Below are positions 7,001 to 23,650 of a DNA stretch of 64,000 nt, piece after piece. The number at the start of each line of letters is the position of its first letter. The stretch's first letter is position 1. The stretch lies in contig NZ_FOAP01000004.1 in assembly GCF_900109545.1 (NCBI RefSeq), positions 124,001 to 188,000 of the forward strand, read 5' to 3'. The notes below the pieces were generated by a model. That model was not told the origin of the DNA and made no database searches. It worked only from the letters and a program-made list of their open reading frames with translations. Position numbers and translations under genes: made by a program. Source of the DNA: Stigmatella aurantiaca (GTDB lineage: Bacteria > Myxococcota > Myxococcia > Myxococcales > Myxococcaceae).

Positions 7001-10000
7001 TCGGCGCGCGTGAGGCCGGACTGCTGGCGGAGTGGGCCATGGGCCCCAGCGCCCCGTCCGCTCCCGCTTCGGTGGTGGAGCTGTTCCAGGCCCAGGCCCA
7101 GCGCACGCCGGACGCGATTGCGCTTGAGCAAGGGGACGTCAGGCTCAGCTACGCGGAGCTCGATCAGCGCTCCACACGTTTGGCACGGCACCTCGTCTCG
7201 CTGGGCCTGGGACCGGAGAAACGGGCCGCGCTCTGCCTTCCGAAATCGGTCGAATTCATCGTCGCCTTGCTGGGCGTGTGGAAGGCCGGTGGGGCGTATG
7301 TCCCGCTGGATCCGGAGTACCCCGAGGCGCGTCTCAGCCACATGCTGGAGGACTCGGGCTCGGAGCTTTTGCTCACGGTGCGCGCGTTGGGCGAGCGGCC
7401 AGGCTTCCGAGGGCGGATGCTGTGGATGGACGAGGCGCTGCCAGACGGTGCGGAACCATCCACCCTGGCGCTCCCGAGCGCGGGCTCGATGGCCTACATC
7501 ATCTACACCTCGGGCTCGACGGGGAAGCCGAAGGGTGCGGTGCTGGAGCACCGTGGGGTGGCGAACATCGCCGTCGCCTCGCGGGAACTCCTGTCGCTCG
7601 GCCCGGACAGCAGGGTCCTCCAGGCGGCCTCCACGTCCTTCGATGTCTCGGTCTGGGACATCGTGATGGCGTTCGCGAGCGGCGCCAGGCTGGTGCTGCC
7701 CATGGACGAGACTTCCCGTGCTGGCGAGGGCCAGGCGGCGCTGCTGCGGGAGAAGCACATCACCCATGTGTGCCTGACGGCGTCGGCGATCGCGGCGCTG
7801 CCGGAAGGCCCGTATCCGGATCTCCGAGTGCTCACCACCGCGGGAGAGGCCTGCCCTGCGGAGCTGGTGAAGAAGTGGGCCACGGAGTCGCGGCGCTTCG
7901 TCAATGCCTACGGCCCGACGGAGACGACCGTCATCGCGACGCTCACCGCCGTCCAGAAGGGTGAGACGGGAGCTCCGCCCATCGGCCGCCCCCTTCCAGG
8001 ACTGGTGGCCCGGATCCTCGATGCCAACCAGCGTCAGGTTCCTATCGGTGTCCCCGGCGAGCTGCACGTGGGAGGGCTCGCCGTTGCGCGCGGGTATCAC
8101 GGGCTTGATGAACTCACCCGTGAGCGCTTCATCCAGGATCCGTTCTCGAGCAGCCCCGGCGCTCGGCTCTACCGCACCGGCGATCTCGCGCGCTGGAGGA
8201 GCGACGGCAACATCGACTTCCTCGGCCGCCTCGACCACCAGGTGAAGCTCAGGGGCTTCCGGATCGAACTGGGTGAGGTGGAAGCGGTCATCGACGGCCA
8301 TCCCGGAGTCCAGCGGTCGCTCGTCATTGTCTACAAAGGCCAGCTCGCCGCCTACGTCGCGGGCCGTGGCGGCGCCGCAGTCACGGTCCAGGCGCTCCGG
8401 GAGCACGCGAAGAGCCAGCTCCCCGGATACATGGTGCCAGCGCACTTCATCCTCCTCGAGGCGTTTCCCCTGACGCCGAGTGGGAAGATTGATCGCAAGA
8501 AGCTGCCGGATCCCGTGGAGGCCCAGGAGCCCACCACCTTTGCCGTTCCCCAGTCCCGCGAGGAGCAGATCCTCGCCGAGATCTGGGCCACGGTGCTGAA
8601 GAAGGGCCCAATCGGAATCCACGACAACTTCTTCGCGCTCGGAGGGGACTCGATCCTCGGCTTGCAGATCATCTCAAGAGCCACCCAGCGAGGGCTCCGC
8701 CTGAGGCCTCGCCAGCTTTTCGATCATCAGACGATCGCGGAGCTGGCCCGAGTGGCTTCCAGCGCTCAAGTAATTCACGCCGAGCAAGGGAAGGTGACGG
8801 GGAGCGCGCCGCTCACGCCCATCCAGCACTGGTTCTTCGAGCAGGAGCGCGCTGAGCCACAGCACTTCAACATGGCGGTGTTGCTCGACGTTGAGCCTGG
8901 CATCGATCTCGCCGTGCTCCGCCGCGCGCTCGATGCGGTGGAACTCCACCATGACGCGCTCCGGCTCCGCTTCCGCCGGGACGGCACGGCCTGGAGCCAG
9001 TATCACGCGGAAGGCGAGGCTCTGGGGATCCCCCTGGAAGAATGGGACATCGCCGGAAGCGACGCGGTGGAGGGGGCGCTCGCCAAGCTCCACGGGGCTC
9101 TTGATCTTGAGCGTGGCCCGCTCCTGCGTGCCGCGATCCTGCGCCTGGGCCCCGGCTCCACGCGGCTCGCCCTGGTGGCCCACCACTTGGTGGTGGACGC
9201 CGTCTCGTGGGGAATCATCTTCGAGGATCTGCTGACCGCGTACGGCCAGCTAGCAAGCGGCCAGCCGGTCGGGCTCCAGCCGAAGACGACGTCCTTTCAG
9301 CACTGGGCGAAGCGCCTTGAGGCCTACGCCGGCTCGCCGAACGCCCGGGCCGAGTTCGATGCGTGGCTCGCCGCCTCCCATCGGGATGCCTCGCATGAGT
9401 TTCCGCTGAATGATCCCTCCGCCTCGGACACGGTCGCCGATGCATCCAGGCTTGTGTCCTGGATCGAGGAAGACGAGACGCAGCTCCTGTTGAACGAGGT
9501 GCCCAAGGCTTACGACGTCCAAGTCAACGAAGTGCTGATCGCCGCACTGGCCCGGACGCTCTCGGTCTGGACTGGCCACAGCACTGTCCGGATTGATCTG
9601 GAAGGCTACGGGCGTGAGTTCCTGTTCGAGGACGTCGACGTGAGCCGCACGGTGGGCTGGTTCACCGCGCTCTTCCCGCTTCGCCTGCATGTCGGAGCCA
9701 AGGAGAGCGTGCGAGAGGCGCTCGCCCGCGCGAAGGATGCTGTGCGCCGCGTTCCCCGAGGCGGGGCCGGCCATGGAATCCTCCGCTATCTGTCTCCGGA
9801 CGCGTCGATCCGCTCGAGACTCCAGGCCGCTGGGCATGCGGGGGTTGTCTTCAACTACCTCGGGCAGATGGGCTCCGTCCCGGCGCAGGGGGTGATCCGC
9901 GGTGCCGCCAAAGAGGGTTTGGGCCCGATCCACTCACCTCGCGCCGCCAGGTCCCACCGCATCGAGCTCAACGCCGTCATCGAGGCGGGGCAGCGCCTGC

Positions 10001-10206
10001 GCTTCGACTGGACCTTCGGCGCCAAGGTCCTCCGCAAGGAAACCCTTGAGAGCCTGAACCAGGCGTTCATCTCCAACCTCCGCGAGCTGATCCGGGATCG
10101 CGCGCAGCCAGCCGCAACGGTCCGCGTGGCCGCGGACTTCCCAGCCGCGCGCCTGAGTGCCAAGGACCTGAAGAGCGTCCTCAAGCAGACGAAGAAGCCG
10201 CGATGA
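1033..10206 (+). CDS. mchB: Nonribosomal peptide synthetase, two modules: C-A(Thr)-NMT-PCP-C-A-PCP-E (MchB-like)
   Basis: The 3057-residue protein attaches the first two amino acids of a lipopeptide. Domains: C (aa 35-470, HHIFYDG at 164), A (505-960) with an N-methyltransferase inserted after core A8 (about 975-1365, VLEIGCGTG at 1040), A10 Lys1434, PCP (Ser1490), C (HHIVSDG at 1687), A (2010-2500), PCP with GGDSI (Ser2540) typical before an epimerase, and E (HHLVVDAVSW at 2717, EGYGRE, TVGWFT). By-eye specificity residues of A1 are DFWNIGMVHK, the classical threonine code. A2 reads DVWCTAAVIK, not a textbook code; in myxochromides this position is D-Ala. The ATG overlaps the PKS stop as ATGA and is preceded by GGAGGT at 1021-1026. 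The E-domain tail continues as the familiar E-C linker, whose second half begins the next gene. N-Me-Thr followed by a D-residue matches the myxochromide core. Confidence 0.87.
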   Translation: MSTPRDNMSGLSLEEKRKLLAELLAKSGKSAPRIFSLSSGQKALWLLQQQDPDGAAYNTPFALRIRSQVDVGALKHAFEMVAARHPSLRTTVSPTADGQLLQTSHPVLEPHFAHIDAAGWSAEQLQAAVVRAYRQPFSLDRGPLLRGDLFSSQPDDHVLLITVHHIFYDGWSAGIVQQELTQLYQVLSRGEQPSLAPVTGSYADFVAQQAEMLSGAVGRKHWDYWQKKLSGELPVLTLPADRSHSALAANRSGACSLKLQPELTNRIKELAQSSEATPFVVLLSAYAALLGRLARQDDVLIGSPTAGRPDTASHGVVGYFANSVALRADLSGAPSTRTLIARMRDVVHEALEHQDFPFASLVERLGIERRPGVSPIFQASMTFHSSREGGGAMALWATPDEVTRVRWGVLELEPYPLSDQETQFDLTLEMWEVRGAFAGALRFNRALFNDSTVGLWRGYFEKLLEQMVRAPDEPIARLALAAHAPAVQLREDTQPAARRDRAGGSTITAWFEAQAARTPEAIALSFGDVHLSYAELNARANVLAHEVRSRGVGPESLVGICVERSAELVISILGVLKAGGAYVPLDPASPRERLALILEDADVSALVTETQRTGELPTEKVPTIFVDSLQWHGGPRAPNPAPGLTPDNAAYVIYTSGSTGRPKGVIVTHANATRLFTTTEALFGFGPDDVWTLFHSAAFDFSVWELWGPLFYGGRLVVVPHWMTRSPEAFGELIAREGVTVLNQTPSAFRALVRAPSIEDGVGGQGLKWIIFGGEALDASTVRPWFERYPGVGTQLINMYGITETTVHVTYHRVTEADLASAASPIGRPIPDLMIRLLDEHGQPVPDGVPGEMYVGGAGVARGYLKRPELTAQRFIEDPVSPGERLYRSGDLAIRQQDGTYSYLGRIDDQVKIRGFRIELGEIQSVIARHPAVASAYVSTYERSADDRRIAAYVVPRPGAAETLLSSSSDGGIGDTHVGEWKALYDELYARSAGEAQTDPSFNIAGWNSSYSGAPLSAEAMKEWVNHTVEQILERKPSRVLEIGCGTGLLLTRIAPSTAAYWATDVSGVVVNMLRGVTKKTPGLEHAQLFHCAADQLEGIDFGGERFEAVILNSVVQYFPSAEYLARALESASARVSTGGFIFVGDVRNLRLLEAFHASIVLAQSSGTLDPHTLKGLVARRLAGEEELVLDPGFFWALKQRIPRLSHVEIRPKRGECLNELTRFRYDVLLHLDTSPASAPDVAWGPGNVSLPELRARLGREGTQRIGLRGIRNARVEAALEALVSLSEQAPVRPGSFEKLRRRLLDRDGSVPTSEPEPGVDPMALEQLAREASCTVTLDWSRGGVDGSFDTVFTRRSPSNEPAAPGRSAEPIALFGPAPDAVPGARHANDPLRGRLERRLESDLRKTAQEHLPEYMVPASIMVIDELPLTGNGKVDRRALPVPAAPHGLEIAYVEPRTGEEEILVSIFAELLGAERVGVRESFFDLGGHSLLATQVVSRVRAVFGVDVPLRTFFDNPTVGGLAAVVQQLRKRSGSAVLDFTSPMKRPPQIPLSSSQERLWILDRIVETRAPIYVIPLVLRLRGPLQQDALRQSLDGSIQRHEVLRTRFSVVEGQPIQEIAGELHVELPPAEALGNGPGATEAELTSLIQNEVGLEVSRPFDLERGPLIRMRLFRIAEGDHVLVLTMHHIVSDGWSVGILARELSAGYNALCSRREVVLPALPVQYADFALWQRQLLRDGALAESIEAHKQRLTGAPTSLNLPTDRPRPETPSYRGGVVRFAVDRALSARLREMSRREGATLYMTLLAAFSAYLSRLSGQKDLIIGSPVANRNRAATEPLIGFFVNTLALRMDLSGDPTFLELLARVRRTALDAYADQDVPFEKLVEVAAPERSVSRQPLVQVMFALQNAPFSPPALDGLHVDLLELDSVTSKFDLTLSMQESADGLAGLLEYSAELFDRERIERMAEHLVVFLREAVEHPQRHVHELDFLGAREAGLLAEWAMGPSAPSAPASVVELFQAQAQRTPDAIALEQGDVRLSYAELDQRSTRLARHLVSLGLGPEKRAALCLPKSVEFIVALLGVWKAGGAYVPLDPEYPEARLSHMLEDSGSELLLTVRALGERPGFRGRMLWMDEALPDGAEPSTLALPSAGSMAYIIYTSGSTGKPKGAVLEHRGVANIAVASRELLSLGPDSRVLQAASTSFDVSVWDIVMAFASGARLVLPMDETSRAGEGQAALLREKHITHVCLTASAIAALPEGPYPDLRVLTTAGEACPAELVKKWATESRRFVNAYGPTETTVIATLTAVQKGETGAPPIGRPLPGLVARILDANQRQVPIGVPGELHVGGLAVARGYHGLDELTRERFIQDPFSSSPGARLYRTGDLARWRSDGNIDFLGRLDHQVKLRGFRIELGEVEAVIDGHPGVQRSLVIVYKGQLAAYVAGRGGAAVTVQALREHAKSQLPGYMVPAHFILLEAFPLTPSGKIDRKKLPDPVEAQEPTTFAVPQSREEQILAEIWATVLKKGPIGIHDNFFALGGDSILGLQIISRATQRGLRLRPRQLFDHQTIAELARVASSAQVIHAEQGKVTGSAPLTPIQHWFFEQERAEPQHFNMAVLLDVEPGIDLAVLRRALDAVELHHDALRLRFRRDGTAWSQYHAEGEALGIPLEEWDIAGSDAVEGALAKLHGALDLERGPLLRAAILRLGPGSTRLALVAHHLVVDAVSWGIIFEDLLTAYGQLASGQPVGLQPKTTSFQHWAKRLEAYAGSPNARAEFDAWLAASHRDASHEFPLNDPSASDTVADASRLVSWIEEDETQLLLNEVPKAYDVQVNEVLIAALARTLSVWTGHSTVRIDLEGYGREFLFEDVDVSRTVGWFTALFPLRLHVGAKESVREALARAKDAVRRVPRGGAGHGILRYLSPDASIRSRLQAAGHAGVVFNYLGQMGSVPAQGVIRGAAKEGLGPIHSPRAARSHRIELNAVIEAGQRLRFDWTFGAKVLRKETLESLNQAFISNLRELIRDRAQPAATVRVAADFPAARLSAKDLKSVLKQTKKPR

Positions 10207-10240: not shown

Positions 10241-13200
10241 ATGACTGAGGCGGAGTTGATTGAGGACATCTACGAGCTCGCGCCCATGCAGCACGGCATG
10301 CTCTTTCACTCGCTGCTGGAGCCCAGCGAGGGCATGTATGTAGAGCAGTTGAGCTGTGAGGTTCGAGGCAAGCTGCCGCTGGAACGGTGGAAGGCGGCCT
10401 GGCAGCACGTCCTCGGGCGGCACGCCATCTTGCGCTCTTCTTTCCTCTGGGAAGGGCTTGAGAAGCCAGTCCAGGTCGTGGCGGTGGAGGCAGAGCTTCC
10501 ATGGCACATCGAGGATCTGAGGAGCGCCAGCGGGGAAGAGCAGGATCGCCGCATCGAGAGCTTCCTGCGCGAGGATCGTCTCCGGGGCTTCGATCTGGCC
10601 TCTCCGCCTTTGCTCCGGTGCGCGCTGCTCCGGCTGGGCGAGGAGCGCTACCGCTTCGTGTGGACCTACCACCACCTCTTGCTGGACGGATGGTGCTTCT
10701 CGATCGTCCTGAGTGAGGTGCTGGAGTCCTTCGCGGGGGGCCTGGAGGCCCTGCCGCCACCGGCACGCCCCTACCGCGACTACATTACCTGGCTGCAGGA
10801 GCAGGATCCTACCCGTGCCGAGAGCTTCTGGCGTGACATGCTGCGCGGCTTCGAGCAGCCCACGCCTCTGCCTTTCATGGAGCGCCGGCAAGCCGGCAAG
10901 TCCGACTCCGGTGCGCAGCCAGAAGTCGTCAGGCACCTGCCGCGCGAGCTCACGGCTCGCCTGGTAACGTTCGCCAAGGAGCACCGGCTGACGCTCAACA
11001 CGCTCGTCCAAGGCGCCTGGGGGCTCGTCCTTGGGCGGACGACGGGCACGGACGACGTCATCTTCGGTGTCACCGTCTCCGGCCGCCCCTCGGATTTGGC
11101 CGGCTCCGAGTCCATCGTCGGGCTCTTCATCAACACCGTGCCACTGCGGGCGCGTCTAGAAGACACCGCGACGGTCCCCGCGTTCCTGTCGGCCCTGCAG
11201 GTCCAGCAGAGTTCCTTCGAGCCCCATGGCTACGTCTCGCTCGCGGACATCCAGCTCTGGTCGGATGCACCGCATGATCGCCCGCTCTTCGAGAGCCTCC
11301 TCGTATTCGAGAACTATCCGATCGACCGGTCGACGCTCCTTGAGCGCAGCGGTCTTGAGATCAGCTCCATCCACGCGCACGAACGCATCAACTACCCACT
11401 GGCGGTGGTTGCCATCCCAGGCGAGTCCCTCGAGCTGCGGGTGATGTACCAGGAGGACACGTTCTCGCGCGCGGCGGCCGAGCGGATCGGACGCTTGCTC
11501 GAGGTAGCGCTTGGGACGCTCACGACCGCCAAGACGATCGGCGAGATCAACTTCCTGGATGAGGCGGCCCGGAGGGTGCTGGCGGAGTGGGGGCAAAACC
11601 CCCGCACGTTTGACTTTCGCGCCCCGGTGCACGAACTCATTGCAAGGGTGGCCCGCGATACCCCTGGCGCTCTGGCCTTGGTGGGCGCGGACGGCCAGAA
11701 GCTCAGCTACCGTGAGCTCGACGAGCGAGCCGATCGCGTCGCACGGGGTCTTCGCCTGCTCGGCGCTGGACGAGAGACCATCGTCGGAGTGTGTATCAGC
11801 AGGTCCGTGGAGTTGGTGGTAGGCCTGCTGGGCGTGCTCAAGGCGGGGGCGGCCTACATGCCGCTCGATCCCAACTACCCGCGGGAGCGGCTCACCTACC
11901 TCGTGGGTGACGCATCCCCTGCGGCGATCCTCAACACGGGCGCGGATCCCGTCCCGGACACCCGCCTCCCACGGATCGATATCTCGCGGGCCTCCCTTGA
12001 TGCGGGGGCGCTCGATGCGCCTGCGAGGGAAGCGTCTCACCTGGAGGATCTCGCCTACGTCATCTACACCTCCGGCTCGACCGGAGCGCCTAAGGGCGTC
12101 CTCGTTTCGCACCGGAACCTGCTCAACCTGGTCTCCTGGCACACGGAGGCGTTCGGGCTCACGGCGAAGGATCGGACGACGCAGCTTGCCAGCGTCGCTT
12201 TTGACGCTGCGGTCTGGGAGATCTGGCCGACGCTCACGGTAGGCGCCACGCTTCACCTCGTCCCGCCTGAGCTGCCCGCGGCTCCCGCCGAGCTCTCGCG
12301 CTGGCTGGTGGAGCGGCAGATCACCATCAGTTTCCTTCCGACGGCGGTCGCTGAGGCCGCGCTCTTGCTGCCTTGGCCCGGGAATTGCGCGCTCCGCTTC
12401 ATGCTGACTGGCGGCGACCGGCTCCACGTCGTACCTCCGCCGGATCTTCCGTTCCGGCTCGTCAACAACTACGGCCCGACGGAGACGACCGTCGTCGCGA
12501 CCTCCGGTACCGTCGGCACGGAGAGCCGGAACGGCCTGCCCTCCATTGGTAGGCCGATCGCGAACGCCCGTATCTACATCCTGGATCGCATGCGGCGGCC
12601 GGTCCTCCCCGGCGTCATCGGCGAGCTGTACATCGGCGGCGCTGGCGTCACCCGGGGATACCTGAACCGGCCGGAGCTGAGCGCTGGCCGGTTTTTCCCC
12701 GATCCCTTCTCGGAAGTGCCCACGGCGCGCATGTACGCGAGTGGAGATCTCGCGCGGTTCCTTCCGGATGGAACCCTCGCGTTCCACGGCCGTGTGGACC
12801 GTCAGCTCCAGGTCCGGGGTGTCCGCATCGAGCCCGGAGAGATCGAGGCCACTCTGGCCGAGTATCCGGGCATCAGCGCCGCCGCCGTGGTGGGGGAAGA
12901 TGTATTGGGTAACGGAGACATCCGGCTGGTCGCCTTCACGGTCTGCGCCAGCCAGAGCCCGCCCGACGCTGCCGCCCTCGCGAGCTACCTGGGGAAGAAG
13001 TTGCCTGAGGTCATGATCCCCAAACAGATCATCTCCCTCAGCGAACTCCCACTCACGCCGAACGGCAAGGTTGACTACGCCGCGCTCCAGGCGCGCGCCA
13101 AGCAGGAGCAGGTCCACACAGAGCACATCGCCCCCAGGACTCCCCACGAGGAGATCCTCGCAGGGATCTGGAGCGCGGTGCTGGGGCTGGAGCGGATCGG

Positions 13201-16200
13201 GGTCGAGGAAGACTTCTTCGCGCTCGGCGGCCACTCGCTCAAGGCGACCCAGGTTATCGCCCGCGCTCGTGAAGCCTTCGGCATCGACCTGCCGGTGCGG
13301 ACGATCTTCGAGCGAAGGACGATCGCGCTGCTGGCCGAGGCAGTCGCCGGGCAGGGCGGCTCCACGGAGCCGATTCCCCGCCTTGAGCTGTCAGGTGACG
13401 GGCCCCTTTCCCCGGGACAGGAGAGCCTGTGGTTCATTGATGCGTTGGGCGGTAACACCGAGGCCTACAACGTACCTCTCGTGATCCAGCTCAACGGCAC
13501 GCTGGACTCCGCGGCTGTCACCCGGTCGCTCGCGCTCCTTGTCGAGCGCCATGAGGCGCTGCGCACCACCTTCCACGAGCGCGGGGGGACTCCCGTCCAG
13601 AGGATCGGGCCGCCCCCTTCCTCCGTGCTCTCGTACGAGGACATCACTCCCGAACTTCTTGATCAGCGGATCTCCGAGGAGATCACCACTCCCTTCTCGT
13701 TGACAACAGGTCCGTTGTTCCGGGCCCGGCTCTTCCGGCTGGCGCCCGACACGCACACCCTCGTCATCAACCAGCACCACATCATCGTGGATGCCTGGTC
13801 GCTCGGTGTCCTGCTCCGCGAGTTCTGCATCGCGTACGCCGCGTTCGTGAGCGGTGAACGGCCGGAACTGCCGGAGCTGCCGAACCGTTACACCGACTGG
13901 GTCGCTTGGCAGCAGCAGCGCCTCGGGGCTGGCCGGACCGAGGAGGGCCTCGCCTACTGGAGACAGGCCCTGAGGGGCGCTCCCCAGGTGCTCACGCTGC
14001 CGAGTGATCGTCCTCGCCCCACACGCCAGAGCTTCCGCGGGAAGACGCTGTCCTTCGCCCTTGAGGGTTCGATCGGCCGCAGCCTTGAGGCGCTCTCGCG
14101 GGGCTCGGGCGCGTCGCTGTTCATGACCCTCCTCAGCGCCTTCGCCGCATACCTCGGTCGGCTCAGCGGCCAGGATGAGGTCGTGATCGGCTCGCCCACG
14201 GCCAACCGGGACCGGCGCGAGACGGAGAATGTGGTCGGCTACTTCCTCAACACGATCGCACTCCGCATCGATCTCTCCGGAGATCCGTCCTTCACGGAGC
14301 TTCTCCAGCGTGTGCGCAAGGCGGCACTGGATGGCTATACGTACCAGGACATTCCCTTCGAGAAGGTGGTCGCGGCGCTCGAACTGCCGCGAGCCCTGTC
14401 GCACAACCCCCTGTTCCAGGTGATGTTCTCCCTCCAGGGACAGAGCGGAGGTGAGATTCAGCTTCCGGGCGTTCGCGTCACGCTCCCCACGCCCGAGAGT
14501 CCGACGTCGAAGTTCGATCTCACGCTCTTTGTCGAGCCTCGGGAGGACGCCTTTGCGTGTCTCCTCGAGTACAACACCGACATCTTCGATGAGGATCGGA
14601 TCCGCCGGATGGCCACGCACCTTGTCCGGGTGCTTGAGGCCGTGGCCGAGGATCCTGAGCTGCGCATCTCGGAGGTCCCCCTCCTGTCCCCCGAGGAGCG
14701 GCAGCTGATCGCTCAGCTCGGTCAGCCGGGGCGCCCGGACGGCAGCCGGACCCTGCTGGAGCTATTCGAGAGGCAGGTAGAAAAGACACCCGAGGCCACC
14801 GCGATCGAGCACCGCGGCGAGGTGAGGACCTATCGCCAGCTCAATCAGGAGGCCGGAGCCCTTGCTGATCGGCTCGCCGTGCTGGGCGCCGGTCCGGACG
14901 TCCGGGTGGCCATCTGTCTGGAGCGTTCGATCACGGCCCCAATTTCTGTCCTTGCGGTTCTCAAGGCCGGTGCCACGTGTGTCCCGCTCGATTCCACCGA
15001 GTCACCCGAGCGCCTTCAATCCGTTCTCGAGGACGCGAAGGCCTGCGTCCTCATCACGGAGAAGAAGTACCGCGGCCTGAGCCTTCCACACGGCACCGAG
15101 GTCATCTGGGTGGATGACAGCGCTGCACCTGCGGTGAAGGCTTCGCGGCCCAGGATGGAGCCCCATCATCTCGCTTGCGTCCTCTACGCCTCTGGATCGG
15201 GCGGCGAGCCGAAGGGCGTCGCCATGCCGCACCGGGCGCTGCTCAACCTGGCCACCTGGCACCTCGCGCAGTCCCGGCCCTTGCGGACGCTCCAGTACGC
15301 CTTGCTCAACACCGGGGCTTCGCTCCAGGAGTTCTTCTCGACCTGGTGCTCGGGAGGCACGCTGGTGCTTGCCGGTGATGCGAACCGGCTCGCCCCTCAC
15401 GCGCTCGTTCAGCTGCTCGAAGAGGCTCACATCCAGCGCCTCTTCCTGCCTGCGGGAGCGCTCCATCCCCTCGCGCGTGAAGCCGTGAACGCCCCCCGGC
15501 CGGTGCCTGGCCTGGAGGAGATCATCGCCGCGGGCGAGCAGCTCCGGATCACCGAGCCGATTCGCCAGTGGTTCGCGGCCAGCAAGAAGAGGCTTCGCAG
15601 CCAATACACCGTCGCGGAGGCCTTCGTCGCCGCGGAGCATGAGCTCACCGGCAGCCCCGAGAGTTGGCCGGGGCTCCCCCCCCTTGGCCGGCCGATCCCC
15701 AACACGGCCGTCCACCTGCTGGACACCCACCATCGCCCTGTTCCCGTTGGCGTTCCTGGAGAGATCTATGTCTCTGGGGCCTGCCTTGCCGAGGGCTATC
15801 TGTCACGGCCAGAGCTCACCGCTGAGCGCTTCCTCGAACTCAGCATCGATCCTCCCGTGCGCGCGTTCCTGACGGGTGATCTCGGGCGGCTGTGCTGGGA
15901 CGGGACGGTCGAATTCTGCGGGCGTGCGGACGGCCAGATCCTGGTCCGCGGCATTCACGTCGAGCCCGGTGAGGTCGAGCGTGTGCTATGCGCTCACCCC
16001 AGCATCCTGGATGCCGTGGTTGTTGCCGCCGGAGACCCGTCGCGGGAGCAGCGCCTCGTCGCCTACCTAACGCCCGAGACCGCGCGGATCGAGGAGTTGC
16101 CAGCGTTCCTTGCGGCGCGAATCCCCGAGTACATGGTGCCCTCGCAGTTCGTGGCGCTCCCCGAGCTGCCCCGGACGCCGGGCGGCAAGCGGGATCGCCG

Positions 16201-19200
16201 CGCGCTCCCTGTGCCTGGCCAGACGGGGAGGGGAGAGGCTGCTACTGGGCCTCGCACGCCCATGGAGGCTCTCGTTGCTCAGGCCTTTGAACAGGTGCTG
16301 GGGCGGAGCCCTGTGGGCCTTCACGAGGACTTCTTCCAGCTCGGAGGCAATCCACATCTGGCGTTGCAGGCCGTCGCGCGCATCAGCGCTGCTGTGAATG
16401 CGGAGGTCCGGGTTGCGGATCTCCTCAAGAACCCTGCCGTTGCGCCTCTGAGCCGTGCGCTCAACGAGCGCCAGGGCAGCCGGACAGCGTTGCCCTCCGC
16501 AATCGAGCCCGCTCCGGAGAGCGCCCGCGCGGCCTTGTCGTTCTCGCAAGAGCGGCTCTGGTTCCTCGACCAACTCTATCCGGGCACTGCGGTCCACAAT
16601 CTCTCCATGGCGCTCAGGCTGAAGGGCGCACTGGATACGGGCGCGCTCATGGAGAGCCTGGCTGGGCTGATCCAGCGGCATCCAGTTCTGGGGATGCGCT
16701 TTGTCGAGCGGGACGGCCGTGTCTGGCAGGAGCCTCGGGTGAAGGGCGAAGTGCCCTGCGAGCTGTCCGTCCCCGGTCCTCTCTCGGCCACGGAGCTTCG
16801 CCGCCTCCTCCACGAGGAGGCGGTGCGTTCCTTCGATCTGGCCAACGGTCCGCTCTTCCGCGCACGGCTCTTCCGGATCGATGACAGCGAGCACATCCTT
16901 GTCACGACGATGCACCAGGCCGTGAGCGACCATGCGTCGCTCCGCGTCTTCGTACGGGAGTTCTCTCAACTCTACGCCGCGCACGTCTCTGGACGGTCCG
17001 CCCAGCTCCCCGCGCTGCCCATGGACTTCCTGAGCTACGCGCGTGAGCAGCGGCACTCCCTCCAGGGGGAAGCCCTGGAGGAGCGGCTGGGTTACTGGAG
17101 GCAGAACCTCCATGGCGCGCCGGGAGCGCTGGGCTTGCCAGCGGATCGGGTTCGGCCACCCCAGCCTGGCTTCCGGGGCGCCACTCAACGGCTCGCGCTC
17201 AGCCGTGGGCTCAGCGAGGGGCTCAAGACGCTGAGCCATCGCCTGGAAGTGGCGGGCCTTGAGGTTCTCTTGAGCGGCTTCGCGGCCTATCTCGCGCGCA
17301 TCACGGGTCAGGAAGACATCGTCATCGGCCTGCCAGTGGCTCACCGTGACCGTGCGGAACTCAAGCCCCTGATCGGGCGTTTCGAGGGGGCCCTGCCGAT
17401 CCGCATCGACCTGTCCTCAAACCCCACCTTCGAGGAGCTCGTTGCCCGCGTTCACCGTGCCACCCTCGGCGCGTACGCCCATCAGGACGTTCCGCTCGAG
17501 AAGATCGTCGAAGCGGTCGATGCTGAGCGCGACCTGAGCCAGACGCCCCTGTTCCAGGTCATGCTCTCACTTCAGGACGCGTCTGAGGGCAGCGTGGCCC
17601 TCCCGGGGCTGAACGTGGAGCCGCTCAGCCTGGAACTCGGGACCGCGAAGTTCGACCTCGCGCTCATCTTCGAACCTGTGGTCGGCGAGCTGACAGGGAT
17701 GATCGAGTACGGCACGGACCTCTTCGACCCGGATCGTATCGAGCGGATGGCCGGGCACCTCTTGACGGTCTTCGAGGACGCCATGGCCTACCCAGGCAAG
17801 CGGATCTCGGAGCTGTTGCTCCTCCCCGAGGAGGAACGAAGGACCGTCTCCGCGTTCGCCAAGGGGCGTGTGCTTCCTCCGGCCCGCGAGGTCCCTGTCC
17901 ACAAGCTCGTGGAGGAGCACGCGCGCCGTGCGCCGGACTCGATCGCGCTTGAGCTGGGCGGAGCGGTGTTGACGTATGGTGAGCTGAATGAGCGGGCGAA
18001 TCGCGCCGCGCATCAGCTCATGGACATGGGCGCTGGGCCCGAGAAGTTGGTCGCGCTGGCGGTTCCGCGCTCCTTCGAGCTGCTCATCGGCCTGCTCGCG
18101 ATCTGGAAGGCGGGCGCCGCCTACGTTCCGCTTGATCTGTCGTATCCCAAGGCCCGGCTCGACACCATCTTCGAGGACTCGGGCGCCAGGCTCCTCGTGA
18201 GCACCCGTACCGCCGAGTCCCGGTGGCGCGTCCCACACGTGAGCACGCTCTGGCTGGATGAGCCCTCGAACTCCGAACTCAGCGGCAACCCGGACAGCGG
18301 CGTCCGCATGGAGAATGCCGCCTACGTCATCTACACGTCCGGATCCACGGGACAACCGAAGGGCGTCATCCTCGAACATCGCGGCCTTGCGAATGTCATC
18401 GAGATGCAGCGGCACGAGCTTGGCGCGGACTCCAACTGCGTCATGCTCCAGTTCTCCTCGATCTCCTTTGACGTGTCGGTGTGGGAGATTGTCATGGCCC
18501 TCACCAACGGGGGGAGGCTCGTGCTCGCCCCTGCGGACACGCTGCTCGCGGGAGAGGAGCTGGCCAAGGTACTGATCACCCATCGGGTGACGCACATGGT
18601 GCTGCCACCGACCTCCTATGCGGTGCTCCCCGCCGACCGTGAGTACCCCTCGCTTCGGCTCCTGCTCGCGGCGGGTGAGGCCCTCCCTCCAGAGGTCGTG
18701 AACACGTGGGCCAAGCCTGGCGTGCAGTTCGTCAACGCGTACGGCCCGACCGAGGTGACCATCATCTGCACGCTCGGCCAGTGCAAGCAGGGCGAGCCCA
18801 GCGCCCCACCGATCGGGCGGCCCGCCTTGAACCTGGAAGGGTATGTCTTCGACAGCCACGGCGCGCTCCTTCCCATTGGCGTCCCGGGCGAGCTGTACCT
18901 GGGGGGCGTGGGTGTCGCCCGGGGCTATTTGAACCGTGAGGGGCTCACGCGGGAGAAGTTCATCCCGCATCCGTTCGAGCCCGGCGCGCGGCTGTACCGC
19001 AGCGGAGATCTGGTGCGATGGCGCAAGGACGGAAACCTGGAGTACCTCGGACGCATTGATCACCAGGTCAAGCTCCGCGGCTACCGGATCGAGCTGGGCG
19101 AGATCGAAGCGGTGCTCGCCACCCACCCAGGGGTCGCGAAAGCGGTGACGATCGTCCACTCCGCGGGCAACTCGGGTGGTGTGAAGCTCCTCGTCGCCTA

Positions 19201-22200
19201 TGTCGTCCCGGCTGGTCCGGTGGACGCGCACTCCATTCGCGATCACGCCAGGAAGCGTCTCCCGGAGTTCATGGTTCCCGCTGAGATCATCCTGCTGGAA
19301 GAGCTCCCCCTTACCTCCAGTGGCAAGGTGGACAAGAAGCGCCTGCCTTCGCCGCGTCTTGAGGAGCACGAGGCGCGCGCGTCCTTCGTGGCCCCCCACA
19401 CGCCCACGGAGAAGACCCTGGCGGCGCTCTGGGAAGAATTGCTTGAGAAGCGTCCGATCGGCACTGGGGATAACTTCTTCCAGCTGGGGGGACACTCGCT
19501 CCTGGCGGCCCAGGTCATGAGCCGTGTCCGAAGGACGCTTGGCGTCGAGGTGCCGCTCTCCGCCATCTTCGAGCAGCCAACGCTTGGGGCGCTGGCCTCG
19601 GTGATCGCCGCCAAGGAGGCCGCACCTCAGCTTCCGCCGCTGGTGCGGCTGAAAGGAGAAGGTGATCGCCCGCTCTCCTTCTCGCAGGAGCGCCTGCGCT
19701 TCCTCGCGGAACTCGAGGGTGACAGCGCGGCGTACAACATTCCGATTGCGTTCTCCCTGCGAGGGCCGCTCCACGAGGGCGCGCTGTCGCGAAGCCTCGC
19801 GCGGGTGGTGGATCGCCACCAACCCCTCCGCACCTGCTTTCCGCTCGTGGAGGGCCAGCCCGTGGCCCGTCTGATCGAGGGAGGCATTCCCCTGGTGACC
19901 GAGGATCTCCGCCGCTCCGGAGCGCCGACGCTCGACAGGCGTCTGAAGGAGGAGTCCTCCCGTCCCTTCTCACTCGATCGCGGCCCCGTCGTTCGTGCGC
20001 ACCTGTTCAAGGCCGCCGAGCAAGAGCATGTACTCCTGGTGGTGATGCACCACATCGTGTCCGACGGCTGGTCGTTCGGCATCATGATGCGCGAACTCTC
20101 GGAGATCTACGCAGCGGAGGTTCGCGGAGAGAAACGGGAACTTCCGGAGCTCCCGATCCAGTACGCGGACTACGCGGCGTGGCAGCGGAGCTGGCTCGAG
20201 GGACATGTCCGTGATCAGCAGCTCGCCTACTGGCGGAGCGCCCTGGCAGGTGCCCCGGCCGTGCTGGAGCTTCCGGCGGATCGGCCCCGGCCCATCGTCC
20301 GGAGCCACCGTGGCGCGGTTGAGTCCCTGGAGTTGGACCGTGGCGTGGCACAAGCGCTCACCGCCCTCTGCCGCCAGGAGGGTGTGACGTCTTACATGGC
20401 GCTCCTCGCGGCATTCGGTGCATGGCTCGGCCGTGTGAGCGGACAGGATGATGTGGTCATCGGCTCGCCCTTCGCGGGCCGCCGGATCGCCGAGACAGAG
20501 CCGCTGATCGGCTTCTTCGTGAACACGCTGCCACTCCGTGTCGATCTCGGTGGGGATCCGTCCTTTCTTGAGCTCCTCCAGCGGGTGCGCCGCCAGGTGC
20601 TCGCGGCCCACGAGAACCAGGACGTCCCCTTCGAGAAGCTCGTCGAGAAGCTCAACCCGGAGCGTGTTCTGGGAACCAGTCCGCTCTTCCAGGTCATGCT
20701 CGCGTTCCAACCGGCGCAGCCGGACGGGATGGAGTTGCCGGGCCTCGAAGTCAAGCCGGTGCCCATGCCGACCGGGACCGCCAAGTTCGATCTCACCCTC
20801 TCGCTGGAAGAGACGGGCCAGGGAGTCCGGGGTTGGCTTGAGTACGATCTCGACCTGTTCGACGCCTGGCGCGTCCAGGCGATGGTGCGCCAGCTGACCT
20901 GTTTCATCACCGGCCTCACCACCGCCCCGAAGGCGAGGATCTCGGAGGCGGAGCTGCTGAGCGCCGAGGAGCGCGTGAAGCTTATCCCCAGCGCTCCCGA
21001 GGAGATGCCTCGTCTCCCGGCTGTTCACGAGGTCATCGCGGCGCAGGCAAAGAAGACACCTGCGGCCATTGCTGTCGAGGCCGAGGATGGCACGCTCCGC
21101 TACGATGAACTCGAGGCCCGCGCGGGTGCCATCGCCCACGAGCTCGTCCGGCGAGGTGTCACTCCGGGGACGTTGGTGGCCATCGCGGTGGAGCGATCCT
21201 TGGGAATGATGGCCGGGCTGCTCGGAATCCTCAAGGCAGGGGCAGCCTACGTCCCGCTTGACCCTGCGTATCCGCGAGAGCGGCTGGCTTTCATGCTCAA
21301 GGACAGCGGCGCCCGGGTGGTCATCACTCAGGAGCACCTCGCGCCGATGTTCCCGGAGGCCGAGGTGCTTGTCCTCGACGCGGCCAGAAAGGGTTCGTCC
21401 GAGCCGCGGAGCGGAGCGCTCGCCTACTGCCTGTTCACCTCGGGATCGACCGGCCAACCGAAGGGAGTGCTGATCGAGCACTCAAGCCTCGCCAACCACA
21501 TGGAGTGGATGAACGAGGCCCTGCCGCTCGGTCCAGAGGACCGCGTGCTCCAGCGCACGTCGCTCAGTTTCGATGCCTCGGTCTGGGAGTTGTTCGCGCC
21601 GCTGATGGCCGGGGCCCGCCTCGTGCTAGCGCCACACGGCCTTGGCGCGGACACGGAGCACCTGGTCCGCGTGTTGCGTGAGCGCGGAATCACCGTGCTT
21701 CAGCTGGTCCCCTCGCTGCTGACGGCGTTGGTGGAGGAGCCCGGGCTTGCAGGCGTCTCCACGCTCCGGCGTGTATGCGTGGGCGGCGAGCCCCTGCCGT
21801 CGGCCACGGTGAAGAAGCTCTTCAGTGTCTGCAACGTGGAGGTCTGGAACCTCTACGGCCCCACCGAGGCGACCATTGATGCGATCGCGCACCGGTGCCG
21901 ACCTGAGGAGGTGGGAGCACATGGCGCGACCGAGCCCATCGGCTTGCCCATTCGTCGCATGAAGGCGCTGATCCTGGACGGTAGGCTTCGTCCTGTTCCG
22001 GATGGGCTGCCCGGCGAGCTCTACCTTTCCGGGCCAGGACTGGCGCGCGGGTACCTGAACCGGCCTGAGCTGACCGATTCACGTTTCATCGAGCACTCGT
22101 TCCCAGGAGGCCCGAGGCTTCGGATGTACAGGACGGGCGACGTCGTCCGGCGCCAGGCGGATGGGACGATCCTCTTCACCGGCCGCGCTGACAGGCAGGT

Positions 22201-23650
22201 GAAGTTGCGCGGCTATCGGATCGAACTCGGGGAGGTCGAAGCCGCGCTCGCTCGCCATCCGGCCGTGCGGGAAGCGGTCGCACTGGTAAGCGGCACGAGC
22301 GGGGACGCCCGCTTGGTGGCCTTCGTGGTACCCAAGGCTGGCGCGAAGCAGCCGGAGGCTTCCGAGCTTCGGGGCTTCGTGGAGCAGCAGCTCGCGGCGC
22401 ACATGGTGCCAGGACAGTTCGTTCTCTTGGCGGAACTCCCCCATGCTCCCAACGGCAAGGTGGACTTCCGTGCGCTGGGGACGATGGAGCTTGCCGAGGA
22501 GCGTGTCACCTCAAGTGGTGGCATCCCGCGCGACGCCATGGAGCTCGAACTCGTGCGGTTGTTCGAAGAGATCCTCGGCGCCCGCTCTGTGGGGATCCAC
22601 GACAGCTTCTTCGAGCTCGGCGGCCACTCGTTGCTTGCGCTCAAGCTGAAGCTCGCGGTCGAGAAGCGGCTCAAGCGCCCGCTCCCCTTGGTGTCCCTGT
22701 TCCGGAATCCGGCGCCCGCGCAGCTCGCGGAGCTCCTTCGGAGCGGCACCTCGGCGGTGTCCCCACTGGTGCCGCTCACGCCGTCCGCCCGCGCGCTTCT
22801 GGCCTCCGAACCCGTGGGCAGTGGCGCTCGACGTCCGCCCACGCTCTTTCTGGTTCCGGGCGGTGGCTCCACGCCGTTCTACCTTCTCTCCCTGGCGCGT
22901 CATCTGGAGGGATACGCCGTGTTTGGCCTCCAGCCGCGCGGGCTCGATGGGGAAGCGCCACCTTTCGAGAAGCTTGAAGACATGGCTGCTTGGTACGCGG
23001 ATGCGATTCTCTCCGTACAGCCCGAGGGGCCTTACTTCGTGGGTGGCCACTCGATGGGTGGGCAGATCGCCTATGAGATCGCGCAACAGCTCCAGGCGCG
23101 CGGGCATGAGATTGGCGTCGTGGCCCTCCTGGACGCCCTGGCGCCTCACCCGGAGGCGACAAGGCCGATGGGGGAGGGTTGGGACACCTCACAATGGCTG
23201 ATTCACCTCGCCGGAGTCATGGAGGCCTTCTTCAACGTCAAGATTGGCCTTGGGCTGAGCGAGGTGCGCGCGATGGGCGATGCCGAGCGCCTCGACGCTT
23301 TCGTGGTACGCCTTCAGTCCGCCGGAGTCCTTCCGGCCGGAGCGCAGCCAGGCCATGTGATGGGGATCCTCAACGTCACGCGAGCCCTGGACGCAATGAA
23401 TTATCAGCCACGCCGCAGGCAGCCTGTTCCTCTTGCCGTGTTCCGGGCCGAGGACAGGGATGGACCCACCTCACCTGAGCTTGATGCGCTCTTCGCGGAC
23501 GATACGCTCGGCTGGGACCGCCTCACGCAGGGCTCCAGCACGGCCTACCGGGTCCCAGGCTCGCATCTGACGCTGATCCGGGAGCCCCACGTCGGGATCC
23601 TCGCCCGGCACCTGTTGACGCTTCTGACAGGCCGTACTCGTGACTTATGA
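10241..23650 (+). CDS. mchC: Nonribosomal peptide synthetase with thioesterase: C-A(Leu)-PCP-C-[dead A-PCP-C]-A-PCP-C-A(Gln)-PCP-TE (MchC-like)
   Basis: The 4469-residue terminal NRPS begins with a C domain of the D-to-L class (HHLLLDG at aa 144), fitting its position after an epimerase. The A domains, by eye, read DAWFLGNVVK (Leu), GAQFIAQVA (degenerate proline type), DVWVLAAIIK (unassigned; like the second A domain of the preceding protein, Ala by analogy) and DAWQCGLIDK (probably Gln). PCP serines are Ser999, Ser3086 and Ser4130; at the second position Ser is replaced by Pro2038. C domains 2 and 4 keep the motif (HHIIVDA at 1179, HHIVSDG at 3270), while the third reads HQAVSDH at 2225. The TE has GHSMGG (Ser4271) and a late His, and should release the chain, in myxochromides by closing a lactone on the Thr hydroxyl. 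Five working amino-acid positions agree with S-type myxochromides. The stop overlaps the next ATG. Confidence 0.87.
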   Translation: MTEAELIEDIYELAPMQHGMLFHSLLEPSEGMYVEQLSCEVRGKLPLERWKAAWQHVLGRHAILRSSFLWEGLEKPVQVVAVEAELPWHIEDLRSASGEEQDRRIESFLREDRLRGFDLASPPLLRCALLRLGEERYRFVWTYHHLLLDGWCFSIVLSEVLESFAGGLEALPPPARPYRDYITWLQEQDPTRAESFWRDMLRGFEQPTPLPFMERRQAGKSDSGAQPEVVRHLPRELTARLVTFAKEHRLTLNTLVQGAWGLVLGRTTGTDDVIFGVTVSGRPSDLAGSESIVGLFINTVPLRARLEDTATVPAFLSALQVQQSSFEPHGYVSLADIQLWSDAPHDRPLFESLLVFENYPIDRSTLLERSGLEISSIHAHERINYPLAVVAIPGESLELRVMYQEDTFSRAAAERIGRLLEVALGTLTTAKTIGEINFLDEAARRVLAEWGQNPRTFDFRAPVHELIARVARDTPGALALVGADGQKLSYRELDERADRVARGLRLLGAGRETIVGVCISRSVELVVGLLGVLKAGAAYMPLDPNYPRERLTYLVGDASPAAILNTGADPVPDTRLPRIDISRASLDAGALDAPAREASHLEDLAYVIYTSGSTGAPKGVLVSHRNLLNLVSWHTEAFGLTAKDRTTQLASVAFDAAVWEIWPTLTVGATLHLVPPELPAAPAELSRWLVERQITISFLPTAVAEAALLLPWPGNCALRFMLTGGDRLHVVPPPDLPFRLVNNYGPTETTVVATSGTVGTESRNGLPSIGRPIANARIYILDRMRRPVLPGVIGELYIGGAGVTRGYLNRPELSAGRFFPDPFSEVPTARMYASGDLARFLPDGTLAFHGRVDRQLQVRGVRIEPGEIEATLAEYPGISAAAVVGEDVLGNGDIRLVAFTVCASQSPPDAAALASYLGKKLPEVMIPKQIISLSELPLTPNGKVDYAALQARAKQEQVHTEHIAPRTPHEEILAGIWSAVLGLERIGVEEDFFALGGHSLKATQVIARAREAFGIDLPVRTIFERRTIALLAEAVAGQGGSTEPIPRLELSGDGPLSPGQESLWFIDALGGNTEAYNVPLVIQLNGTLDSAAVTRSLALLVERHEALRTTFHERGGTPVQRIGPPPSSVLSYEDITPELLDQRISEEITTPFSLTTGPLFRARLFRLAPDTHTLVINQHHIIVDAWSLGVLLREFCIAYAAFVSGERPELPELPNRYTDWVAWQQQRLGAGRTEEGLAYWRQALRGAPQVLTLPSDRPRPTRQSFRGKTLSFALEGSIGRSLEALSRGSGASLFMTLLSAFAAYLGRLSGQDEVVIGSPTANRDRRETENVVGYFLNTIALRIDLSGDPSFTELLQRVRKAALDGYTYQDIPFEKVVAALELPRALSHNPLFQVMFSLQGQSGGEIQLPGVRVTLPTPESPTSKFDLTLFVEPREDAFACLLEYNTDIFDEDRIRRMATHLVRVLEAVAEDPELRISEVPLLSPEERQLIAQLGQPGRPDGSRTLLELFERQVEKTPEATAIEHRGEVRTYRQLNQEAGALADRLAVLGAGPDVRVAICLERSITAPISVLAVLKAGATCVPLDSTESPERLQSVLEDAKACVLITEKKYRGLSLPHGTEVIWVDDSAAPAVKASRPRMEPHHLACVLYASGSGGEPKGVAMPHRALLNLATWHLAQSRPLRTLQYALLNTGASLQEFFSTWCSGGTLVLAGDANRLAPHALVQLLEEAHIQRLFLPAGALHPLAREAVNAPRPVPGLEEIIAAGEQLRITEPIRQWFAASKKRLRSQYTVAEAFVAAEHELTGSPESWPGLPPLGRPIPNTAVHLLDTHHRPVPVGVPGEIYVSGACLAEGYLSRPELTAERFLELSIDPPVRAFLTGDLGRLCWDGTVEFCGRADGQILVRGIHVEPGEVERVLCAHPSILDAVVVAAGDPSREQRLVAYLTPETARIEELPAFLAARIPEYMVPSQFVALPELPRTPGGKRDRRALPVPGQTGRGEAATGPRTPMEALVAQAFEQVLGRSPVGLHEDFFQLGGNPHLALQAVARISAAVNAEVRVADLLKNPAVAPLSRALNERQGSRTALPSAIEPAPESARAALSFSQERLWFLDQLYPGTAVHNLSMALRLKGALDTGALMESLAGLIQRHPVLGMRFVERDGRVWQEPRVKGEVPCELSVPGPLSATELRRLLHEEAVRSFDLANGPLFRARLFRIDDSEHILVTTMHQAVSDHASLRVFVREFSQLYAAHVSGRSAQLPALPMDFLSYAREQRHSLQGEALEERLGYWRQNLHGAPGALGLPADRVRPPQPGFRGATQRLALSRGLSEGLKTLSHRLEVAGLEVLLSGFAAYLARITGQEDIVIGLPVAHRDRAELKPLIGRFEGALPIRIDLSSNPTFEELVARVHRATLGAYAHQDVPLEKIVEAVDAERDLSQTPLFQVMLSLQDASEGSVALPGLNVEPLSLELGTAKFDLALIFEPVVGELTGMIEYGTDLFDPDRIERMAGHLLTVFEDAMAYPGKRISELLLLPEEERRTVSAFAKGRVLPPAREVPVHKLVEEHARRAPDSIALELGGAVLTYGELNERANRAAHQLMDMGAGPEKLVALAVPRSFELLIGLLAIWKAGAAYVPLDLSYPKARLDTIFEDSGARLLVSTRTAESRWRVPHVSTLWLDEPSNSELSGNPDSGVRMENAAYVIYTSGSTGQPKGVILEHRGLANVIEMQRHELGADSNCVMLQFSSISFDVSVWEIVMALTNGGRLVLAPADTLLAGEELAKVLITHRVTHMVLPPTSYAVLPADREYPSLRLLLAAGEALPPEVVNTWAKPGVQFVNAYGPTEVTIICTLGQCKQGEPSAPPIGRPALNLEGYVFDSHGALLPIGVPGELYLGGVGVARGYLNREGLTREKFIPHPFEPGARLYRSGDLVRWRKDGNLEYLGRIDHQVKLRGYRIELGEIEAVLATHPGVAKAVTIVHSAGNSGGVKLLVAYVVPAGPVDAHSIRDHARKRLPEFMVPAEIILLEELPLTSSGKVDKKRLPSPRLEEHEARASFVAPHTPTEKTLAALWEELLEKRPIGTGDNFFQLGGHSLLAAQVMSRVRRTLGVEVPLSAIFEQPTLGALASVIAAKEAAPQLPPLVRLKGEGDRPLSFSQERLRFLAELEGDSAAYNIPIAFSLRGPLHEGALSRSLARVVDRHQPLRTCFPLVEGQPVARLIEGGIPLVTEDLRRSGAPTLDRRLKEESSRPFSLDRGPVVRAHLFKAAEQEHVLLVVMHHIVSDGWSFGIMMRELSEIYAAEVRGEKRELPELPIQYADYAAWQRSWLEGHVRDQQLAYWRSALAGAPAVLELPADRPRPIVRSHRGAVESLELDRGVAQALTALCRQEGVTSYMALLAAFGAWLGRVSGQDDVVIGSPFAGRRIAETEPLIGFFVNTLPLRVDLGGDPSFLELLQRVRRQVLAAHENQDVPFEKLVEKLNPERVLGTSPLFQVMLAFQPAQPDGMELPGLEVKPVPMPTGTAKFDLTLSLEETGQGVRGWLEYDLDLFDAWRVQAMVRQLTCFITGLTTAPKARISEAELLSAEERVKLIPSAPEEMPRLPAVHEVIAAQAKKTPAAIAVEAEDGTLRYDELEARAGAIAHELVRRGVTPGTLVAIAVERSLGMMAGLLGILKAGAAYVPLDPAYPRERLAFMLKDSGARVVITQEHLAPMFPEAEVLVLDAARKGSSEPRSGALAYCLFTSGSTGQPKGVLIEHSSLANHMEWMNEALPLGPEDRVLQRTSLSFDASVWELFAPLMAGARLVLAPHGLGADTEHLVRVLRERGITVLQLVPSLLTALVEEPGLAGVSTLRRVCVGGEPLPSATVKKLFSVCNVEVWNLYGPTEATIDAIAHRCRPEEVGAHGATEPIGLPIRRMKALILDGRLRPVPDGLPGELYLSGPGLARGYLNRPELTDSRFIEHSFPGGPRLRMYRTGDVVRRQADGTILFTGRADRQVKLRGYRIELGEVEAALARHPAVREAVALVSGTSGDARLVAFVVPKAGAKQPEASELRGFVEQQLAAHMVPGQFVLLAELPHAPNGKVDFRALGTMELAEERVTSSGGIPRDAMELELVRLFEEILGARSVGIHDSFFELGGHSLLALKLKLAVEKRLKRPLPLVSLFRNPAPAQLAELLRSGTSAVSPLVPLTPSARALLASEPVGSGARRPPTLFLVPGGGSTPFYLLSLARHLEGYAVFGLQPRGLDGEAPPFEKLEDMAAWYADAILSVQPEGPYFVGGHSMGGQIAYEIAQQLQARGHEIGVVALLDALAPHPEATRPMGEGWDTSQWLIHLAGVMEAFFNVKIGLGLSEVRAMGDAERLDAFVVRLQSAGVLPAGAQPGHVMGILNVTRALDAMNYQPRRRQPVPLAVFRAEDRDGPTSPELDALFADDTLGWDRLTQGSSTAYRVPGSHLTLIREPHVGILARHLLTLLTGRTRDL
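14745..17850 (+). other. Fossil NRPS block inside the second NRPS: inactive A, PCP and C domains
   Basis: Three successive domains in an otherwise intact reading frame have lost defining residues. The A domain has YASGSGGEPKG instead of the YTSGSTG..PKG loop (aa 1649). Gly1692 stands where the amino-group-binding Asp belongs, and YTVAEAF (aa 1789) replaces YGPTE. The PCP has GGNPHL, so the phosphopantetheine Ser is Pro2038 (codon CCA at 16352). The following C domain has HQAVSDH (aa 2225), with the catalytic second His replaced by Gln and the usual GFFVNTL segment changed to GRFEGAL. Remaining specificity positions (-Q-IA--V) resemble the proline code DVQLIAHVVK. The C domain before the block and the A-PCP after it look intact and could form one working module. 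Confidence 0.85.

Follow-up and report, generated by a model that had tools for sequence, protein, structure and literature searches.

An A-PCP-C block apparently silenced by point mutation and still under selection in a myxochromide-type synthetase of Stigmatella aurantiaca

Introduction

Skipping of module 4 in the biosynthesis of S-type myxochromides has been known since 2005, as cited in PMC12192607 and PMC4849084, and in nature the skipping of modules is described as extremely rare and so far poorly understood (PMC12192607). The closest described system is the S-type MchC of Stigmatella aurantiaca, a nonribosomal peptide synthetase (NRPS); the motifs of condensation (C) domains C4 and C5 of the published mch cluster, including an HQ in C5, were noted in 2025 (PMC12192607). 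Here we analyze an MchC-type NRPS from S. aurantiaca that resembles S-type MchC in domain order and in its inactive fourth module. It is encoded on a stretch of 64,000 nucleotides (contig NZ_FOAP01000004.1, positions 124,001 to 188,000; hereafter the window). The published S-type accounts, as far as their available text goes, describe a skipped module 4; we place the loss instead at adenylation (A) domain A4, peptidyl carrier protein (PCP) domain PCP4 and C5. Our comparisons make it probable that this is an S-type myxochromide synthetase whose proline step was lost by point mutation, and in which C4 would condense the chain onto PCP5 across a dead A4-PCP4-C5 block.

Two other systems frame the comparison. 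The A-type synthetase of Myxococcus, which makes a hexapeptide, is represented by seven orthologues that share the domain order of the window enzyme and are 60-62% identical to it over the block; they differ from it in having intact A4, PCP4 and C5 domains and a Pro-type code in A4. The exchange unit (XU) of NRPS engineering has the same A-PCP-C extent between C-A linkers as the affected block (PMC11546977), although the XU is a man-made design rule, whereas the window would hold a natural, in-place loss with a new acceptor for the upstream C domain.

Results

Lesions in A4, PCP4 and C5

The mchC frame is uninterrupted on translation. Domain limits were set from motifs, with a Pfam check on slices covering C4, A4, PCP4, C5, A5, PCP5 and C6 (Table 1). 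The block at 14745-17850 corresponds to residues about 1502-2537 of MchC and comprises A4, PCP4 and C5. The initial annotation had reported Gly for the amino-binding Asp with broken A3 and A5 motifs in the A domain, and Pro for the phosphopantetheine Ser in the PCP, and both stand: Asp1692 of A4 is Gly (GGG), its A3 motif is YASGSGGEPKG, with the Lys kept, and its A5 motif is YTVAE, while Ser2038 of PCP4 is replaced in the sequence GGNP. In the C5 motif, HQAVSDH, the second His (His2226) has become Gln, the Gly has become His and the next Trp has become Ala. Pfam scores fall in parallel in the window relative to an orthologue with an intact block, G028 (A4, 207 versus 284 bits; PCP4, 33.7 versus 52.5, on slices slightly wider than the tabulated domain; C5, 303 versus 361). 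The motifs of C4, A5, PCP5 and C6 look intact. The enzyme combines a module 4 that is inactive by sequence and ancestrally of Pro-type code, as in S-type systems, with an XU-like pattern in which A4, PCP4 and C5 are broken between an intact C4 and an intact A5. The skipped unit, described earlier as the fourth module of MchC, is in fact the second module of that protein and module 4 only in the numbering of the whole assembly line.

Distribution of the lesions among orthologues

Searches with the block covered a set of 59 genomes and one of 96 from the family, each including the window's own. In the family set, 21 genomes reached E 1e-230, 13 at 60-100% identity, which were taken as orthologues, and 8 at 43-45%. 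A second query, the last module plus thioesterase (TE), recovered those 13 genomes, again out of 96, at E 1e-250. Four orthologues belong to the window's genus: the window enzyme (G000) and those of G001, G004 and G005, at 93%, 83% and 81% identity; the block search found none in three more genomes of this genus (G002, G003, G006). The remaining nine all fall in one other genus, which we take to be Myxococcus and call Myxococcus-like. Within the window's own genome, no other match among those listed (13 of 136 candidates scored) exceeded 41% identity. A contig scan, from which records near the window were possibly omitted, gave 21 loci at 28-43%, none accepted as an orthologue.

Alignment with A-type-like and S-type enzymes, which the initial annotation had proposed as a check, separated the two genera cleanly: A4, PCP4 and C5 are broken in all four enzymes from the window's genus and intact in all nine Myxococcus-like ones. 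The nine Myxococcus-like enzymes all carry DVQFIAHVV as their A4 specificity code, presumably a Pro code, and the four others GAQFIAQVA or GTQFIAQVA. In each of these four the PCP4 Ser is Pro; the following residue is Ser in G005 only (AGT), and His or Arg elsewhere. The Gly and Trp of the C5 motif are likewise lost in 4/4. The HQ reported for C5 was found in the window and in three of the four enzymes altogether, whereas G004 reads HHAVGDHT and retains HH. The G005 sequence, HQAVGDPAS, fits the HQxxxDPAS that PMC12192607 gives for the published mch cluster; the window sequence is HQAVSDHAS, and its block is 81% identical to that of G005. No indel occurs within the block among the four sequences. 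Since the A4 and PCP4 lesions are common to all of them, the simplest reading is a loss before they diverged.

Conserved positions point to the affected condensation domain

To ask which domains have lost constrained residues, we used 80 C, 79 A and 57 PCP external domains, each selected by its intact motif and drawn from 29 hand-chosen loci of 98, orthologues and others being excluded. A position was scored as lost if it was at least 90% conserved externally, kept by all Myxococcus-like sequences and different in at least one of the four. Losses amounted to 20/77 positions in A4, 4/12 in PCP4 and 6/37 in C5, as against 0/40 in C4 (C5 versus C4, p=0.0098). Elsewhere they were few: C3 1/38, C6 1/41, A3 3/70, A5 1/75, A6 0/74, PCP3 0/10, PCP5 0/12 and PCP6 1/11. 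The reverse count, of positions kept by the four and lost in a Myxococcus-like sequence, gave 2/59, 0/8, 1/32 and 1/41 for A4, PCP4, C5 and C4. With the selection-motif columns removed, C5 still lost 5/34 and C4 0/37 (p=0.021), A4 lost 18/73 and PCP4 3/9 (p=0.052). Departures of C4 from the external consensus number 3-5 in intact enzymes and 3 here.

Broader measures point the same way. Fixed differences between the genera reach 58/493 (11.8%) in A4, 11/71 (15.5%) in PCP4 and 48/436 (11.0%) in C5, and 33/441 (7.5%) in C4, 28/435 (6.4%) in C6 and 32/503 (6.4%) in A5. Among sites invariant in the seven Myxococcus-like enzymes, 139/353 are changed here in C5 versus 92/328 in C4 (p=0.002), and the C4 rate matches that of C3 (92/335, p=0.93). 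Over residues 1036-4460 there are 2693 such sites, of which 699 differ in one or more of the four; from residue 1036 on, the best segment is 1112-2556, with a gain of 53.4 log units (the largest of 60 shuffles gave 10.1), and its right edge, 2510-2596, is the C5/A5 boundary. Scans free of annotation returned 199-1284 for all four sequences, a segment probably due to A3, as well as 1483-1654 for G000/G001 and 1479-2453 for G004/G005. Within the Myxococcus-like group they returned 404-495 for the seven sequences and 214-1252, 401-488 and 421-600 for three pairs. An AlphaFold model of the block from a 13-row alignment was uninformative (mean pLDDT 53.7, pTM 0.31).

Selection on the block

Ratios of nonsynonymous to synonymous rates (dN/dS, omega) were estimated with a custom codon model (F3x4) having separate classes for the Myxococcus-like background, the stem and the crown of the four, on 11 sequences with G093 and G110 excluded. 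The tree is unrooted, and the stem therefore includes the Myxococcus-like side. Branch lengths were either free, with the four PCPs instead scaled from A5, C6 and A6, or fixed for all domains in the relative proportions of A5, C6 and A6. With free lengths, crown omega was 0.152 for A4 (background 0.067, p=2e-8), 0.122 for C5 (0.071, p=0.0017) and 0.081 for PCP4 (0.097, not significant); it was also raised in C3, A3 and C6. With fixed proportions, the stem-to-background ratio was 1.64 for A4 (p=4e-5) and 2.31 for C5 (p=2e-10), the highest of 13 domains, and 1.01 for C4 (p=0.94), 1.01 for A5, 1.27 for C6 (p=0.11) and 1.20 for PCP4 (not significant); crown ratios were 1.65 for A4, 1.77 for C5 and 1.43 for C4 (p=0.0024). 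Crown dN/dS was rejected as a deciding test, C4 and C5 both being raised about 1.6-1.7 fold.

We do not rely on C3 and A3 because A3 of G004 and G005 looks recombined. In these two enzymes (L075/L076) A3 has another code (DVMAIGIVA, FDVSVMDIW), and G000, G001 and the nine Myxococcus-like enzymes have DAW.LGNVV; recombination of the module-3 A domain is the likely cause.

The block has remained under purifying selection. Neutrality (omega = 1) is rejected for each of its domains (p<1e-29) and for the block as a whole (crown omega 0.122), and the crown values of A4, PCP4 and C5 lie far from the value near 1 expected of a neutral relic after loss. The term "fossil", applied to the block in the initial annotation, is therefore too strong.

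The HHxxxDA motif of C4 is ancestral

The HHxxxDA motif has been suggested as a mark of module skipping (PMC12192607). It is present in C4 of 13/13 orthologues, including the 9/9 whose module 4 is intact and which presumably do not skip, so that the motif is ancestral, and this argues against the proposed link to skipping. In a small external set of 66 distinct C-A pairs, HHxxxD is followed by a non-Gly residue in 7/15 pairs with a Pro-like code versus 10/51 others (p=0.048), a weak sign that such a residue may go with Pro acceptors.

A second A-PCP-C loss in the family

Two of the nine Myxococcus-like enzymes (L083/L084, from G093 and G110) are one module shorter. Compared with two reference enzymes, they are A-type-like as far as C5; close to where the C domain ends, around residue 2490-2498, the sequence becomes C6/A6-like, which indicates that A5-PCP5-C6 was deleted and C5 kept before A6. 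These C-type-like synthetases resemble the window enzyme in having lost one A-PCP-C unit with the upstream C domain kept. They differ in that A5-PCP5-C6 was lost by deletion and A4-PCP4-C5, in the window, by point mutation.

Gene context

The region has the layout of an S-type cluster: a polyketide synthase (PKS), of which only the ketoreductase (KR)-acyl carrier protein (ACP) end lies in the window, then a two-module NRPS with methyltransferase (MT) and epimerase (E), then a four-module NRPS with TE. We take the cluster to be of myxochromide type from the PKS end, the two-module NRPS with its methyltransferase and the published architecture. In the MchB-type NRPS, HHxxxD is found in 3/3 domains, the PCP Ser in 2/2 and the A3 motif in 2/2, and the A5 pattern was matched in A2 only. 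Its last C-type domain has HHLVVDA and is read as the epimerase by position and from the published architecture (PMC9581180). Ala as the A5 substrate is taken from the published A-type and S-type products (PMC9581180, PMC4849084).

Table 1. Features of the myxochromide-type locus (positions in the window)
Feature	Position	Strand	Description	Basis
PKS end (MchA-type)	35..1036	+	KR-ACP end of upstream PKS; frame runs past window start	Pfam, open reading frame (ORF)
MchB-type NRPS	1033..10206	+	3057 aa, read as C1-A1-MT-PCP1-C2-A2-PCP2-E	Pfam, motifs
MchC-type NRPS	10241..23650	+	4469 aa, C3-A3-PCP3-C4-A4-PCP4-C5-A5-PCP5-C6-A6-PCP6-TE	translation, motif scan; 12 orthologues elsewhere
PCP3	13142..13345	+	intact (GGHSLKA), chain donor	motif
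C4	13388..14710	+	intact, HHIIVDAW; candidate for condensation across the dead block	motif, conservation, Pfam 373.6 bits
C4 motif HHxxxDA	13775-13795	+		motif
A4	14738..16216	+	probably inactive, ancestrally Pro-type code; D1692G, broken A3 and A5 motifs	motifs, Pfam AMP-binding
PCP4	16253..16465	+	inactive by sequence: Ser2038 to Pro (GGNP)	motif, Pfam
C5	16523..17830	+	probably inactive: HQAVSDH, W2232A, Y2119H, T2338A, E2375K	motif, conservation, Pfam
A5	17858..19366	+	intact, code DVWVLAAII	motif, specificity code
PCP5	19403..19606	+	intact (GGHSLLA), proposed C4 acceptor	motif, Pfam 60.5 bits
C6-A6-PCP6-TE	19661..23620	+	intact last module and release domain	motifs
TE	22808-23620	+	release domain	

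A small ORF of ~450 bases from 23647 overlaps the mchC stop codon; it starts MSFQVLLRLLHLF and looks by eye like a membrane protein. The region 24403-64000 holds a separate series of large ORFs, of which the three scanned are type I PKSs (ketosynthase, acyltransferase, dehydratase and ketoreductase), the first with two acyltransferase stretches. GC skew is positive there; in the mch part it is near zero or slightly below.

Discussion

In the mechanism that we propose, A4 would no longer activate Pro, PCP4 would be unable to carry the phosphopantetheine arm and C5 would be without its catalytic motif. C4, being intact, would still accept the chain from PCP3 but condense it onto Ala-PCP5 in place of Pro-PCP4. 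C4 and A5-PCP5 may then make up a single working module, interrupted by about 1,030 residues of catalytically dead insert. Folding of the insert would be maintained by selection, probably for a scaffold role in which C5 provides a platform for A5 and A4 lies against C4, and PCP5 could come within reach of C4 either through looping or as part of a second MchC chain. The authors of a survey of recombination in natural NRPSs argue against C domains being stringent filters of selectivity (PMC8097286).

The alternative that survives best, though we consider it unlikely, is skipping in its textbook form, in which the whole of C4-A4-PCP4 is bypassed and the chain moves from PCP3 to a C5 that works despite its HQxxxDH or HHxxxDH motif. 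C5 is the natural partner of A5-PCP5, it is still under purifying selection and it keeps HH in G004; moreover, an HQ C domain can be active, the second His not always being essential (PMC11546977). Set against this are the loss by C5 of 6/37 conserved positions where C4 lost 0/40, and a C5 stem omega ratio that tops the 13 domains under fixed proportions. A bypassed C4 would be expected to decay along with A4 and PCP4. Because C4 has kept its conserved positions and C5 has not, the likeliest route runs from PCP3 through C4 to PCP5. The claim that the loss runs A-PCP-C rather than C-A-PCP therefore holds for the residue losses in A4-PCP4-C5 and the sparing of C4, but draws no help from crown omega, which is similar for C4 and C5 with free lengths; overall, loss of A-PCP-C appears better supported by the sequences than skipping of C4-A4-PCP4.

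Several observations weigh against transfer across a dead A4-PCP4-C5. Some concern the rates. With free lengths, crown omega of C4 is 0.107 (background 0.065, p=0.0018) and is not separated from that of C5, and the stem does not differ significantly from the background for A4, C5 or C4 (likelihood-ratio 2.8, 1.1 and 0.4), the signal being absorbed by a longer stem (C5 stem length 1.78). Relaxation of A4 and C5 on the ancestral branch thus depends on fixed branch proportions. The proposed comparison of dN/dS inside and outside the block accordingly met with mixed success: the stems of A4 and C5 are raised with fixed proportions, and the crowns of C4 and C5 are not separated. Fixed proportions also give raised crown omega in C3, A3, C4 and C6 and raised stem omega in TE (1.63, p=0.008), and PCP4, with 71 codons, has no raised omega in either fit. 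The TE signal is perhaps an adjustment to a shorter peptide. Others concern the positions and edges. At a 75% threshold the contrast between C5 (21/90) and C4 (11/93) is weaker (p=0.051); even intact enzymes have a C5 that deviates from the external consensus, at 7-8/45 positions versus 11-13 here; the left edge of the segment of raised change, 1069-1129, falls inside C4 and not at the C4/A4 boundary; and the segment scan on fixed differences spans 1339-2594. The rest bear on catalysis and precedent. An active HQ domain, ORF18, exists in another system (PMC11546977), so that C5 may still be active, and HH persists in G004. C4 keeps HHxxxDA, and since a residue other than Gly at that place is commoner with Pro-type acceptors in the small external set, a switch to Ala would have left no mark on it. 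Finally, natural exchanges mostly target the A core and not A-PCP-C (PMC8097286).

Three further explanations fare less well than the bypass of C4-A4-PCP4. It is improbable that the block is dead as proposed while C4 acts only in trans, on PCP5 of a second MchC molecule; the size of the insert (about 1,030 residues) and its continued selection would suit this, and a dimer is compatible with the data, but NRPSs of the MchC kind are usually taken to be monomers. Passage of the chain to PCP4 first, where it would then meet Ala from PCP5, is a mechanism summarized in a review (PMC4849084) and is very improbable here, as PCP4 has lost its Ser in 4/4 species and a neighboring Ser exists in G005 only. 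A sequencing or assembly slip can be dismissed, given that three other genomes at 81-93% identity carry the block with the same lesions in frames of 4474-4492 residues without stops.

A literature search, with the original mch papers outside its scope, found no cross-species comparison of the block, no account of its A-PCP-C extent or continuing selection, and no mention of the parallel A5-PCP5-C6 deletion or of an ancestral HHxxxDA. We lean, somewhat cautiously, toward the view that this enzyme family loses an amino acid by removing an A-PCP-C unit and reusing the upstream C domain, by deletion in one case (A5-PCP5-C6) and by in-place point mutation in the other (A4-PCP4-C5). In the latter the dead unit would persist as a selected, folded scaffold within an inherited "split module", with the C domain acting on a PCP that begins about 1,565 residues past the end of that domain.

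The case indicates which condensation domain probably performs the skipping reaction and lends itself to a clean test by point mutation. For engineers it offers two natural drops of A-PCP-C in one enzyme family, in each of which the upstream C domain would meet a new partner. Since a block that looks catalytically dead is nonetheless under strong selection, dead domains are not necessarily safe to delete.

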